Source: Acetobacteraceae bacterium H6797
GTDB taxonomy: Bacteria > Pseudomonadota > Alphaproteobacteria > Acetobacterales > Acetobacteraceae
NCBI GenBank assembly: GCA_015223225.1
Contig: JADFCQ010000001.1
Location: forward strand, 868,001 to 932,000
Length of the DNA: 64,000 bases
Direction: 5' to 3'
This document shows positions 2,807-64,000 of this stretch, piece by piece; position 1 is the first letter of the stretch; each line of letters begins with the position of its first letter. A model generated the notes under the pieces. It was not told the DNA's origin, made no database searches, and saw only the letters and a list, made by a program, of their open reading frames with translations. Position numbers and translations under genes: made by a program.

Positions 2807-3187
2807 ATGAACGCGATCACCAAGCCCAAAGTCGAAACCCTGGCCGAGGAAATCGAGGCCCTGCGCGCCAAGCTCGAGGCCGCCATCAGCGAGCGGGGCA
2901 GCCACTCGCTGAGCGAGGCGGTCAACCGCGCCCGCGCCGCCGCCGCCGACATGGCCGCGAGCACCCGCGACATGGCCAGCACCGTCGCCTCGACGACGCG
3001 TGACGCGGCCACTACGGTTGCCTCCAGCACCCGCGAGATCGCCGGCACCGCCGCCGCGGTGGCGCAGCGCGAGGCCCAGGCGGCCGCCGGCCAGGTGCGC
3101 GCCCATCCCTTCCTGAGCGTCGCGATCGCCGCCTCCATCGGCTGCCTCGCCGGCCTGCTCATGGGCGCCTCCGCCCGCCGCGACTGA
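2807..3187 (+). CDS. DUF883 / ElaB-YqjD-like membrane-anchored protein
   Basis: 126 residues. A long Ala/Thr/Arg-rich amphipathic helix (about 10-95) shows repeated segments (STRDMASTVASTTRDAATTVASSTREIAG). One C-terminal transmembrane helix follows (FLSVAIAASIGCLAGLLMG) with a short basic end. That is the architecture of the ElaB/YqjD/DUF883 family, inner-membrane proteins linked to stationary phase that in E. coli bind ribosomes. A good ribosome site (AGAGGAAAG) precedes the ATG. It follows the small lipoprotein by 45 bases, so the two may be co-transcribed. Confidence 0.75.
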   Translation: MNAITKPKVETLAEEIEALRAKLEAAISERGSHSLSEAVNRARAAAADMAASTRDMASTVASTTRDAATTVASSTREIAGTAAAVAQREAQAAAGQVRAHPFLSVAIAASIGCLAGLLMGASARRD

Positions 3188-3197
3188 TGCGTTTCCG

Positions 3198-3224
3198 GGG
3201 CCGCTCCGCAAGGGGCGGCCCGTT
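3198..3224 (+). terminator. Probable terminator after the DUF883 gene
   Basis: GGGCCGCTCC at 3198-3207 pairs with GGGGCGGCCC at 3212-3221 (one G-U pair) around the tetraloop GCAA, and is followed by GTTT. The T tract is short, so termination may be partial. Confidence 0.5.
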
Positions 3225-3315
3225 TCCCACATAATCGCGCGAAGGTGGCTTTGACCGGCCCTCCTCCGCGTGGTCTGCTACCGCCATCCTGCCACCCTTG
3301 CGCCGAGACAACGCC

Positions 3316-60128: not shown

Positions 60129-62552
60129 ATGGATGGCTCGCTTCCCAGCGCCCGACTCCGGCGTCGTACCGTCGCGCCCGGCGCCAGCTTCGGCACCACC
60201 CCCCTCCCCGCCCGCGCCATGGACCCCGGCATGGGCCTGGCCGTCGCCCGCCGCACCGTCTTCCGCCCTTCCGACCAGGAGGATTTCGGCCGCGTCGCCG
60301 AGCGCGTCGCCCTGGGCAACCTCTCCCTGTTGGGCGAACCCGACCCCGCCGAGCAATTGGCGCTCCGCAACGCCATCGCCACCGGCGCGCTGCTGACCTC
60401 CGGCCGCCACCTCCAGCATGGCGATGCCGACCAGCCCAAGCGGAACATGGAGGTCTTCACCAACTGCTCCACCGCCATCGCGAGCTTCGCCCTCTTCTAC
60501 CTGCTGCTGAACGGCAGCGGCGTCGGCCGCGCCTATGACGATGAGCTGATCACGACCAACTGGGCCAATGCCCCCATGCTCCGGCTGCATCTCTCGCGCA
60601 GCCACAAGGACTATCCGCAGACGCGCGAAGCCCTGCACCATTTCGCGACTGAATTCTCCCTCCTCCCCTGGGGCACCACGCTCGAGAGCTTTTCCGAGGA
60701 GCAGGAAGCCGAGACCCGCGCCTTCATCGCCCGCGAGTTCACCGATGCCACCGGCGAGGAAGCCGATGGCGAGACCATCGAATTCCTCATCCCCGACAGC
60801 CGCGAAGGCTGGGCCAAGGCCGTCGAGCTTCTCGAAAGCCTCGCCTTCGAAGGCGCGCGCGAGAAGACGCTCCTGCTCGACTTCTCCGCCATCCGCCCGC
60901 GCGGCGCGCCCATCGCCGGCATGCAGGGCCGCCCCGCCTCGGGCCCCATCTCGCTCATGCGCGCCTTCCTGAGCCTGCGCCAGCATGTGCTCGAACCCGC
61001 GCGCCATCGCAGCCCGACCGACGAGGCCCTGGCACCCTGGGAACAGGCCCTGCTGGTCGATCACTACCTCTCCGTCGAGGTCCAGGTCGGCGGCGCCCGC
61101 CGCGCGGCCCGCATGGCGACGAAATCCTGGCGCGACCCGGGCATCTTCCGCTTCATCCGCGCCAAGTCCGAAGGCGGGCTCTGGACGGCGAATAACTCCG
61201 TCATGGTCGATGCCGATTTCTGGCAGGGCGTGAAACAGGCCCGCGCCGGCAGCACCGACCCGCTGCACCGCCACGCGCTGGCCGTCTTCGACGAAGCCAC
61301 CCGCTGCGGCTTCATCAATGGCGAGCCGGGCTTCATCAACGGCGACAAGCTCGACGACCACCGCACCGGCCGCGCCTGGCAGAAGCCCGCCTTCGACGAC
61401 GGGCGGGACCTGCGCTCGGCGCGCTACCAGGCGAATTACGCCGGCCCCCTCCTCGCCGAGGCCGCCCGCCGCGCCCAGCACGCGCGCTTCCCGGTCACGA
61501 CCAATCCCTGCGGCGAGATCACGCTGCACGTCACCGGCGGCTATTGCGTCATCGCCGATTTCGCGCCCCTCCTCGCCTGCCCCGAACCGCTCGACGCGCT
61601 CGTCCCCGGCATCATGCCCGACAGCCTCGCCGATCTTTGGGACAAGCGCGTGGAAGACAGCGTGCGCCTCGGCATCCGCTTCCTCATCCGCGCCAATACG
61701 ATGGATGCGCTCTACGGCGAGGAAGTCGCCCGCACCAACCGCATCGGCATCGGCCCCACCGGCCTGCACGAATGGGCCTGGGCCCGCTGGGGCTTCGACT
61801 TCCAGGACCTGCTCGACGAAAACCGCAGCGCGCCCTTCTGGCAGATGCTCGCCCGGCTCTCCGAGGTCGCGAAGGAAGAGGCCGCCTCCTACGCCGAAGC
61901 CCTCGGCCGCAACGAGCCCTTCACCGTCACCACGGTGAAGCCCGCCGGCACCACGTCAAAGCTCTTCGGCATCACCGAAGGCGCGCACCTGCCCGCACGC
62001 CAGCAATACCTGCGCTGGGTGCAGTTCAAGGGCACGAAGAAGGATGACGGCAGCTGGGCCGATGACGCCGACAAGCTCCTCCCCGAATACGAGGCCCGCG
62101 GCTACCCGGTGCGCCAGCTCCGCTCCTTCCCCGGCATGTCCATCGTCGGCTTCCCGACCCTGCCGCTGATCCAGCGCCTGGGCATCGGCGAGCGCCTGAC
62201 CACCGCCTCCGATGCCTCGCCCGAACAGCAATACCGCTGGCTCTCGCTGCTCGAACGCCACTGGATCGGCGAGGAAGGCGGCAACCAGGTCTCCTACACG
62301 CTGAAAGTCTACACCGACCGCTTCGACCTCCCCCATTTCCGCGACATGGTCCTGACCCACCAGCCCACCATCCGCTGCTGCTCGATCCTGCCCACCAAGC
62401 CCGACCACGAACTCGGCTACGAATACCTCCCCGAAGAACAGGTCCCCATGGACCGCTTCGCCGAGATCGTCGAGCGCATCAACGATCCTTCCCTGCACGA
62501 GGCGATCGACCTGGCGCATCTGCAATGCGCGTCGGGAGCGTGTCCCATCTAA
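60129..62552 (+). CDS. Adenosylcobalamin-type (class II) ribonucleotide reductase
   Basis: 807 residues from the ATG at 60129; an upstream in-frame GTG at 60003 would add 42 residues that do not look conserved. The reductase barrel has VFTNCSTAIASFALFYLLLNGSGVG (active-site Cys region), NNSVMVDADFW, NPCGEITLHVTGGYCVIADFAPL (radical Cys), TVKPAGTTSKLFGITEGAHLP, and the C-terminal redox pair CASGACPI. There is no ATP cone. It resembles the monomeric B12-dependent type that acts on nucleoside triphosphates, removing the 2' hydroxyl. The terminal CxxxxC renews the active site. Family variant is not certain. Confidence 0.85.
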   Translation: MDGSLPSARLRRRTVAPGASFGTTPLPARAMDPGMGLAVARRTVFRPSDQEDFGRVAERVALGNLSLLGEPDPAEQLALRNAIATGALLTSGRHLQHGDADQPKRNMEVFTNCSTAIASFALFYLLLNGSGVGRAYDDELITTNWANAPMLRLHLSRSHKDYPQTREALHHFATEFSLLPWGTTLESFSEEQEAETRAFIAREFTDATGEEADGETIEFLIPDSREGWAKAVELLESLAFEGAREKTLLLDFSAIRPRGAPIAGMQGRPASGPISLMRAFLSLRQHVLEPARHRSPTDEALAPWEQALLVDHYLSVEVQVGGARRAARMATKSWRDPGIFRFIRAKSEGGLWTANNSVMVDADFWQGVKQARAGSTDPLHRHALAVFDEATRCGFINGEPGFINGDKLDDHRTGRAWQKPAFDDGRDLRSARYQANYAGPLLAEAARRAQHARFPVTTNPCGEITLHVTGGYCVIADFAPLLACPEPLDALVPGIMPDSLADLWDKRVEDSVRLGIRFLIRANTMDALYGEEVARTNRIGIGPTGLHEWAWARWGFDFQDLLDENRSAPFWQMLARLSEVAKEEAASYAEALGRNEPFTVTTVKPAGTTSKLFGITEGAHLPARQQYLRWVQFKGTKKDDGSWADDADKLLPEYEARGYPVRQLRSFPGMSIVGFPTLPLIQRLGIGERLTTASDASPEQQYRWLSLLERHWIGEEGGNQVSYTLKVYTDRFDLPHFRDMVLTHQPTIRCCSILPTKPDHELGYEYLPEEQVPMDRFAEIVERINDPSLHEAIDLAHLQCASGACPI

Positions 62553-62669
62553 CTATCGAAACCGCGCAAGAGAGATTGCTTTGAGGCTCACAACAGGGCA
62601 GAGCGGCAACCTATTGCATCTACGCTTCTGAAATTCTATACGATATAGAAATGTCTTTTCGAGATAGCC

Positions 62670-63410
62670 ATGCCACAACCGCAGAACGGCGAAAGCCGGT
62701 TCTACGACATCTACATTGATGAGAGTAGCCAAACACAAAATCGATATTTGGCCTTGGGCGGCATTATTATGCCGACCCATACAGCTGCCGAATTCGAACA
62801 ATGCATGAGAGCCGCTCGGCTACCGGAGTTGCCCAGCGGTGAGCTAAAATGGGGGAAAGTTTCCGCTTCAAAATTACCAGCCTACCAACGCGTGGCGGAA
62901 TGGTTCCTGACATCGAAAGAATCGTGCATTCGAGCCGCACAATTTCATTCAATCGTTGTGGATACTCATAAAATAAAAGATAAAGCCTTCAATGGTGGTT
63001 CGCGAGAAATCGGCTTTAATAAAGAAATATATCAACTATGCCAAAAATTCGGTCGAATTAAGCCAAGTGGCCTATTTAATGTTTATCTAGATGAAAGAGA
63101 AACAAAGTCTAGCACAAATGATCTGAAAACTATCTTAAACCACGGCATCAGAAAAAAATTTCCATCCCGAGATTGGCCTTACAGGCGCGTTCATTTCAGA
63201 AACTCGTCAAGTTGCTTACATTTACAAATCGTCGACATTCTACTGGGTGCTGTTGCTTTTAGAATAAACGGCCACCGGTATGCGCCTCATGCATCTAAAT
63301 CAAAAAGCGAACTATCAGATTTAGTCCTCTCACTAGCTGGGATTCGAGACGCGAGTAAGGATACAGCGACCTACGGCCGTTTCACCGTGTGGCATCGGGT
63401 ACTGCGATGA
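62670..63410 (+). CDS. DUF3800 domain protein in an AT-rich island
   Basis: 246 residues. DUF3800 hallmarks are YDIYIDESSQTQNRYLALGGIIMPT near the start, YLDERETKSS in the middle, and LHLQIVDILLGAVAFRINGHR near the end, with the conserved Asp/Glu set suggesting an RNase H-like nuclease fold; that activity is inference from family. The gene is clearly AT-richer than its neighbours, with codons such as AAA, ATA and TTA rarely used elsewhere in this window, indicating recent transfer. A three-way junction RNA-like structure starts five bases after its stop. Confidence 0.85.
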   Translation: MPQPQNGESRFYDIYIDESSQTQNRYLALGGIIMPTHTAAEFEQCMRAARLPELPSGELKWGKVSASKLPAYQRVAEWFLTSKESCIRAAQFHSIVVDTHKIKDKAFNGGSREIGFNKEIYQLCQKFGRIKPSGLFNVYLDERETKSSTNDLKTILNHGIRKKFPSRDWPYRRVHFRNSSSCLHLQIVDILLGAVAFRINGHRYAPHASKSKSELSDLVLSLAGIRDASKDTATYGRFTVWHRVLR

Positions 63411-63414
63411 GGGG

Positions 63415-63488
63415 TCCCGCGCTCCTAGGCTATCGCCACCGTCTTTGGACGGGCCCACTGCTCTTGGCAGTGGATTTGGAGCGCGGGA
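63415..63488 (+). ncRNA. Candidate DUF3800-associated structured RNA (three-way junction)
   Basis: An outer stem of 11 bp (TCCCGCGCTCC at 63415-63425 with GGAGCGCGGGA at 63478-63488) encloses two hairpins: CCGTC/GACGG (63439-63443 and 63448-63452, loop TTTG) and CCACTGC/GCAGTGG (63455-63461 and 63467-63473, loop TCTTG). A 13-nt single strand (63426-63438) and a 4-nt strand (63474-63477) complete the junction. DUF3800 RNA motifs are known as structured RNAs beside DUF3800 genes; this one lies immediately after such a gene. The exact motif class cannot be assigned by eye. A complex terminator is an alternative. Confidence 0.65.
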
Positions 63489-63744
63489 GTGTCTCTTACT
63501 TAATATAGAATCGAACACAAGTCAATAGAAATCTATTTCAATATTACTAGGATAGAATTTTCCCTCCGCAAATATTCAAAATTTTAGGCTGAGTCTAAAA
63601 TCATTTTGATGATGAATCTGAAAGCGCCCACACAGATCCCATAGACATAGGATGACGAGTGGTGGCCCCGCGCCCCACGCACCCCTCCCCACCGCGTCGC
63701 AGCAAAAGCTCGCTCCCACCCGTCCATTTCGATAAACGGTCCTA
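63489..63744. other. AT-rich then GC-rich intergenic region without a gene
   Basis: The first 170 bases are AT-rich with no coding frame; they include the hairpin ATTTTAG (63581-63587) / CTAAAAT (63595-63601). From about 63660 the base composition returns to the GC-rich host pattern, marking the right edge of the island. Confidence 0.6.
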
Positions 63745-64000
63745 ATGACCGACGACTACAGCGCCCCCGCCCACCCCGCCGAAGCCGCCATCCTGGCTTC
63801 GGGCTGGGCCGTGGAGAGCCGCGAACTGCCCCAACTCACCCGCCTCGTCGCCCGCCGCATGCCGGCCGATCGCGATGCCGTCGCCGCCGCCCTCTGCGAA
63901 GTCCGCCGCAAGGCCTGGACCGGCCGCCTGAACGACCTCGCCAACCGCACCGGCCAGGTCTGGGTCCGCCGCGAAGACAGCGCCGCCGCGGCCGCCACCA
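63745..64000 (+). CDS. Partial hypothetical protein at the window edge
   Basis: The frame opens with the ATG at 63745 and runs off the window after 85 codons. It reads MTDDYSAPAHPAEAAILASG, then WAVESRELPQLTRLVARRMP, ADRDAVAAALCEVRRKAW, TGRLNDLANRTGQVWVRRED. GC-rich, host-like codon use. A short helical, basic start with no signal peptide. I do not recognise the family, and the C-terminus is outside. Confidence 0.55.
   Translation, partial: MTDDYSAPAHPAEAAILASGWAVESRELPQLTRLVARRMPADRDAVAAALCEVRRKAWTGRLNDLANRTGQVWVRREDSAAAAAT

Follow-up and report, generated by a model that had tools for sequence, protein, structure and literature searches.

A 64,000-nucleotide stretch of the genome of Acetobacteraceae bacterium H6797 (assembly GCA_015223225.1, contig JADFCQ010000001.1, positions 868,001 to 932,000 of the forward strand; hereafter the window) carries a DUF3800 gene followed directly, at 63415-63488, by a sequence that would fold into a cloverleaf-shaped RNA of ~75 bases. 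The conserved structure is tied to one DUF3800 subfamily: an RNA model (R1) matches beside all 20 relatives with sequence past the DUF3800 stop codon, 21/21 loci with the window included, in support of the coupling of structure and gene supposed in an earlier note on this DNA. Promoters and mismatched pairs suggest probable transcription of the RNA from a promoter of its own, in the direction opposing the DUF3800 gene, and we tentatively propose that it restrains the DUF3800 protein, a predicted RNase-HII-fold nuclease. Five relatives carry the protein-RNA pair within an IS1595-family transposon.

Fold and conservation of the RNA element

The folded structure at 63415-63488 is beyond chance. 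The + strand at 63405-63500 (96 nt) reaches -54.5 kcal/mol (z -5.5), and the - strand, taken as the reverse complement of 63411-63492 (82 nt), -47.8 kcal/mol (z -7.5), with none of 200 shuffled sequences as low in either case. The element lies 4 bases after the DUF3800 stop codon, and a recheck bears out the coordinates of the earlier note together with its 11-bp outer stem (P1) and inner hairpins of 5 and 7 bp, all of which pair perfectly in the window copy. The predicted fold also contains a third hairpin, P2 (GGC-TATC-GCC), positioned at 63428-63437 between P1 and the 5-pair hairpin, which makes the junction four-way. The three-way junction drawn in that note is ruled out by P2 in the predicted fold, by its covariation and by the presence of its stem across loci. 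A P2 stem of 3-6 pairs can be drawn in 21/21 loci, in a best-stem search whose short stems could be chance.

Covariation in homologues, proposed in the earlier note as a check on the structure, is clear. In an alignment of 17 of the 21 sequences, 20 of 28 pairs vary on both sides, 87% of cells are paired, and the covariation score reaches 0.523, where shuffled alignments give 0.218 ± 0.017 and sliding the columns by 1-3 gives 0.056-0.127. Within P2, four of five aligned pairs change on both sides, with 75% of cells paired. Five measures were compared with shuffles, and all but the count of further pair types stand out (44 versus 40.2 for that count, with 48 of 500 shuffles reaching 44). Related loci, including five from Bradyrhizobium and several pairs, are non-independent in the covariation, promoter and mismatch statistics alike.

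The loci derive from alignment A1, composed of 35 proteins (the window protein and 34 of 120 listed homologues, 386 having been found), whose scans return 19 loci in genome contigs and three in viral contigs. Sequence past the DUF3800 stop is present in 20 of these 22, L022 being a partial gene at a contig end and L024 ending at the stop. The RNA model was built from 17 of the 21 sequences; the four left out (L011, L016, L019 and L021) still match it, three of them as near kin of model rows, with L019 the weakest match (25.9 bits, expect value (E) 0.002). Carriers include Acetobacteraceae, Paracoccaceae, Sphingomonadaceae, Rhizobiaceae, Nitrobacteraceae, Reyranellaceae, Phreatobacteraceae and Hyphomonadaceae. 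The gap from stop codon to RNA is 2-9 bases, or the two overlap, in 20/21 loci. Distances between the proteins are correlated with those between the RNAs (Mantel r 0.72, reached by 0/2000 permutations), as linkage alone would also yield.

The arrangement varies in detail. The DUF3800 frame terminates within the RNA element in L008, L009 and L012, in the first two at a junction UAG beside P1. In two Sphingomonas species (L007 and L015), the pair is adjoined by the same genes, including a thiC-like gene (Pfam on the L007 copy only), and can therefore be inherited vertically. The DUF3800 genes of L023 and L024 lie at the extreme end of viral contigs, perhaps in host sequence next to an integration site.

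The protein-RNA pair is rare. In a scan of 385 genomes of the class, whose stricter filters may lose weak matches, the window's genome alone matched the RNA model, and no RNA lacking a DUF3800 gene turned up; A1 found five distant DUF3800 genes there besides the window's. Among 397 genomes of the family, one more pairs the RNA with a complete, closely related DUF3800 gene (389.6 bits), and among 378 of the phylum, one more close DUF3800 gene (381.3 bits) has the RNA. L033 is the Limobrevibacterium copy found again in the genome sets, and L225 is probably the Thermopetrobacter copy. No RNA model match lies near any of the 22 distant DUF3800 genes searched (5 + 6 + 11; L237-L240 and L241-L252 fall outside this set). 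On 185 viral stretches, found through short P4 patterns among the matches listed, the model reaches 21.1 bits at best and the RNA is absent. Two single-protein queries found no more relatives in viral contigs, and no close relatives occur on plasmids or phages, where all 103 and 9 records fall below 60% identity.

The earlier note had pointed to the Rfam DUF3800 models as a further comparison, and these return no match up to E 10 at 63300-63620; at gathering scores, no Rfam family matches in the window. Among the RNA-bearing relatives, 16 of 20 (all except L016, L017, L018 and L021) were scanned and carry no Rfam DUF3800 family at gathering score, and the L017 region gives none of these models up to E 10. 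A match of L010 to DUF3800-XI (16 bases, 10.2 bits, E 3.4) covers a GAAA-capped hairpin only and was taken as chance. Beside distant DUF3800 genes, the only Rfam RNAs are tRNAs in 20 loci, with nothing in six more, including P1 rlfA.

Probable strand and promoter of the RNA

Sigma-70-like hexamers are present on the far side of the element from DUF3800, directed at the RNA, with a summed score of 209.5 against 49.5 ± 11.9 for dinucleotide shuffles (0/300 as high). The matrices approximate E. coli promoters and allow 3-14 bases between the -10 box and P1; the box ends 7-10 bases from P1 in 19/21 loci. At 15 of the 21 loci, at most 1% of shuffles of that locus reach its score. Examples are TTGACA-16-TATTAT in L015 and TTGAAA-17-TATACT in L025.

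Mismatched pairs, scored without preference in the + frame, comprise 8 G-U and 15 A-C overall, with 1 versus 9 in P1, 1 versus 4 in P2 and none in P3. Because A-C in the + frame corresponds to G-U in the - frame, P1 and P2 favour the - strand, whereas P4 does not. Relative to DUF3800, RNA and promoter have undergone a joint inversion in L025. The opposing promoter, the P1 and P2 mismatches, the folding energies and this co-inversion together point to a probable independent RNA gene whose transcription would oppose that of DUF3800 and begin at P1 (in the window, from ~63490 downwards), on the strand opposite to the one folded in the earlier note. On the same evidence, the RNA is probably not the tail of the DUF3800 mRNA.

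Table 1. Features of the window locus; the strand given for the RNA, its helices and its promoter is the probable one
Feature	Position	Strand	Basis
DUF3800 gene, 246 aa, predicted RNase-HII-fold nuclease	62670..63410	+	
Possible DUF3800 promoter, TTGCAT-17-TATACG	62614..62642	+	by eye; weak, missing from consensus scan
Four-way-junction RNA	63415..63488	-	fold z -7.5, model R1 78.2 bits, covariation, promoters of relatives
Outer stem P1, first arm, 11 pairs (partner 63478-63488)	63415..63425	-	
Outer stem P1, second arm	63478..63488	-	
Hairpin P2, 3 pairs in window, up to 6 in relatives	63428..63437	-	predicted fold
Hairpin P3, 5 pairs	63439..63452	-	
Hairpin P4, 7 pairs	63455..63473	-	
Promoter-like hexamers for RNA, TTGACT 63525-63520 and TATATT 63507-63502	63502..63525	-	by eye

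The DUF3800 protein

The window protein scores 41.1 bits against PF12686 (cut-off 21), placing it in the DUF3800 family, and comparison of its structure model finds an RNase HII fold. Retroviral integrase and RuvC appear only at low ranks in the Foldseek list for this model. Residues D17, E18, D98, D141 and D189 are retained, and the predicted structure suggests that the protein may be an active nuclease. It matches both models of the PADLOC entry PDC-M04A (E 1.8e-28 and 1.8e-18), itself a candidate system only.

Stand-alone DUF3800 copies in Bradyrhizobium, whose flanks share no mutual blastn similarity, have ratios of nonsynonymous to synonymous substitution rates (dN/dS) of 0.029-0.050 in five of six comparisons, the sixth being saturated; dS ranges over 0.5-1.8, partly near saturation. 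The transposon-borne Paracoccus copies give 0.085, and the L007-L015 and L012-L023 comparisons are saturated. The ratios indicate that the stand-alone Bradyrhizobium copies are under purifying selection.

Carriage by IS1595-family transposons

In five of the 21 loci (L006, L011, L013, L020 and L025), a convergent IS1595-family transposase gene lies beyond the RNA. The transposase was identified by PF12762 and PF12760 in L006, L020 and L025, with NCBIfam NF033547 on two, and by BLAST clustering in L011 and L013. Terminal inverted repeats enclose a small gene, DUF3800, the RNA and the transposase in 5/5, delimiting transposons of 2366 bp (L025), 2587 bp (L020), 2724 bp (L006), ~2.2 kb (L011) and ~2.55 kb (L013). 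Exact 8-bp target duplications, read by eye, flank L025 (AATTTTTA), L020 (GGCCGCTT) and L013 (AAATTTGT, with borders by eye three bases further out), and none was seen by eye flanking L006 or L011. The small gene, of ~50-60 aa, is divergent and upstream of DUF3800 in L006, L013, L020 and L025; the match in L011 is confined to the first 34 of 54 positions. Three of the small proteins were tested and match no family above cut-off, and the L020 protein is matched by 39 database proteins, itself included.

Probable transposase relics are present in L018 (E 2e-5), in L004 (3e-4), the window's nearest relative, and in L009 (0.004), which keeps a left terminal repeat (score 18.7). Probable small-gene relics are found in L014 (2e-7), L018 (2e-5) and L004 (0.005). 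A wrong-frame query with the L025 small gene gave chance matches down to E 5e-4, so the weaker relics (the L004 small gene and the L009 transposase) lean on place and orientation. DUF3800 and the RNA are intact in loci where the transposase and small gene look decayed, and with relics beside stand-alone pairs, some of these loci look like old transposons retaining protein and RNA.

The mobile protein-RNA unit suggested in the earlier note therefore exists in some relatives, as an IS1595-family transposon, and is not seen in the window itself, where transposase, repeats and relics are lacking. The window gives no transposase or small-gene relic at E 0.05, and its best terminal-repeat score is 2.9, against 22.9-31.2 for the repeats of the matrix. 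Its pair may derive from such a transposon, now reduced to protein and RNA only.

Two more distant DUF3800 genes also adjoin such transposases. In L226 (genome G943), a gene of 32% identity over 148 residues is accompanied by the small divergent gene and a co-directional IS1595 transposase, without the RNA. In L240 (a Methylobacterium bullatum plasmid), an IS1595-like transposase match is followed ~120 bases further on by a distant DUF3800 gene (29%), and a strong simple hairpin (z -10.1) is present at ~2781-2870.

Proposed mechanism and alternatives

The reading we tentatively favour, at slightly under an even chance, is that a trans-acting four-way-junction RNA from its own promoter binds and restrains the RNase-HII-like DUF3800 nuclease. 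The RNA would be transcribed against the neighbouring DUF3800 gene, the DUF3800 protein would be an active nuclease, and the RNA, binding it in trans, would hold it in check. The nuclease would be freed when a short-lived RNA is lost or a phage infects, and such release could make protein and RNA an addiction or defence pair that outlives its transposon. The window copy would then be one such survivor, having lost its transposase and small gene. A wider version, conceivable though doubtful, is a hitherto undescribed kind of transposon-borne RNA-controlled module in which the cloverleaf RNA restrains the RNase-HII-fold DUF3800 protein, the small protein adds a second control, IS1595 elements spread the unit, and a stand-alone addiction or anti-phage pair is left behind.

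Several observations weigh against restraint by an independently transcribed RNA. The promoter is weak in six loci (the window, L006, L008, L009, L011 and L020): the best-scored window promoter, TTTCTA-18-TATATT, reaches 8.7 bits, with 8% of shuffles as good, and the window TTGACT and TATATT hexamers are spaced by 12 bases, where most relatives have 16-17, and so form a poor promoter. The control on the other side of the element also exceeds its shuffles (44.3 versus 6.0 ± 11.3, 0/300), with no single locus at 1% and a region that is mostly the conserved DUF3800 gene end. P4 has 6 G-U and 2 A-C in the + frame, so the strand evidence is mixed, and the folding energies belong to the same mixed signal, favouring the - strand in 13/21 loci with a mean of -1.6 kcal/mol. 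A clear terminator is absent at the RNA 3' end across the loci, a U run following P1 only in L005. L003 (genome G013) holds a truncated close DUF3800 gene (55% identity over 74 residues) without the RNA. The small divergent protein may share control, and within the transposons its gene might supply the true antitoxin.

A close rival, which we nevertheless rate as unlikely, makes the RNA a working cofactor (scaffold, substrate selector or guide holder), as in transposon-borne RNA-guided nucleases. The element as predicted has no variable guide-like end; it is closed by a stem of 10-11 bp, it is flanked on the 3' side by the neighbouring gene's end, and it is internal to the transposon rather than at the edge. 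Restraint is preferred on the grounds that the self-closed element shows no guide-like end, that its promoter faces the opposite way, and that it persists alongside the protein where the transposon is gone. The same opposing promoter, and the short distance or overlap between stop codon and RNA, would also suit an antisense regulator of the DUF3800 mRNA, complementary at the 3' end by convergent transcription in the manner of a type I antitoxin. We regard this as improbable: a branched fold need not be conserved for antisense pairing, but the helices here covary, and the inverted L025 RNA, no longer antisense to DUF3800, is still intact with its promoter.

A lower probability still attaches to an element that is only a terminator or 3' untranslated region structure in the DUF3800 mRNA, or a terminator serving two convergent genes. 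Its place directly 3' of the stop codon and its strong outer stem agree with this, whereas three inner hairpins with covariation, a promoter from the other side and the inversion in L025 do not, and a consensus scan finds no terminator-like site within 62540-63745. The slimmest chance is given to an element that acts in transposition as DNA, forming a cruciform or hairpin that might, for example, serve the transposase or the DUF3800 protein as a site. Its location inside the transposon in five loci and the mixture of G-U and A-C mismatches among the helices would fit such a role; against it, the element is intact in loci without a transposase and is not at transposon ends, and its near-fixed promoter distance implies transcription.

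Relation to known systems

Rfam holds a set of about eleven DUF3800-associated RNAs, with the names I, IX and XI present and DUF3800-XI classed as a small RNA (sRNA) gene. The window and 20/20 relatives resemble these in having a structured RNA beside a DUF3800 gene; they differ in that none of these covariance models is matched at gathering score in the window or in the 16 relatives scanned. IS1595-family insertion sequences carry passenger genes; the relatives share their transposase, terminal inverted repeats and 8-bp duplications, and differ in their cargo, which consists of a DUF3800 gene, the RNA element and the small divergent gene. TnpB and IscB with omega RNA likewise combine an RNase-H-type nuclease with an RNA on a transposon, whereas here the predicted element has no guide-like end, the RNA is internal and closed by P1, and the protein model is nearest to RNase HII. 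In type III toxin-antitoxin systems, a repeat RNA antitoxin, upstream of and co-directional with the toxin gene, restrains a nuclease. By analogy, the present RNA would also restrain a nuclease, but it is a single unit placed downstream of the gene, it is probably transcribed in the opposing direction from a promoter of its own, and the protein family is another. Type I antitoxin RNAs are antisense to the toxin mRNA; the present RNA, if read from the opposing strand, would by position be antisense to the DUF3800 3' end region in 20/21 loci, though not in L025.

If the wider version, the transposon-borne RNA-controlled module, is correct, it would account for the many DUF3800 genes found next to structured RNAs. 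The effect of the RNA on the protein is now testable with a ~75-base part and one 246-residue protein. Covariation in the family is strong, transcription has a likely direction and start point, transposons define the borders of the unit, and the protein has a predicted fold and active site; the natural inversion in L025 counts against a simple mRNA-tail or antisense role. DUF3800-linked RNAs and RNase H folds of DUF3800 proteins are already known. Linkage of DUF3800 with putative noncoding RNAs is cited in PMC10910872, and DUF3800 proteins, whose function is unsettled, occur in some loci of clustered regularly interspaced short palindromic repeats (CRISPR). Among the papers listed in a literature search that covers subscription journals thinly, none was found joining DUF3800, IS1595 and a transposon, or containing the RNA family, its direction, its natural inversion or the IS1595 cargo arrangement.

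Other structures near DUF3800 genes

Among 12 viral loci related to L238 (Moorella phage MCACPph1), none has a comparable structure within ~150 bases past the stop (best z -4.6). L238 itself carries a distant DUF3800 gene (28%) with a different three-way-junction structure at the stop codon (2208-2294; z -7.3 on the + strand and -8.0 on the - strand), which has no Rfam match and is followed by a U run on the - strand. In L020 (Henriciella), a skipping-rope RNA match (41.4 bits, cut-off 36.7) is positioned at 3111-3229, just outside the left end of the transposon.
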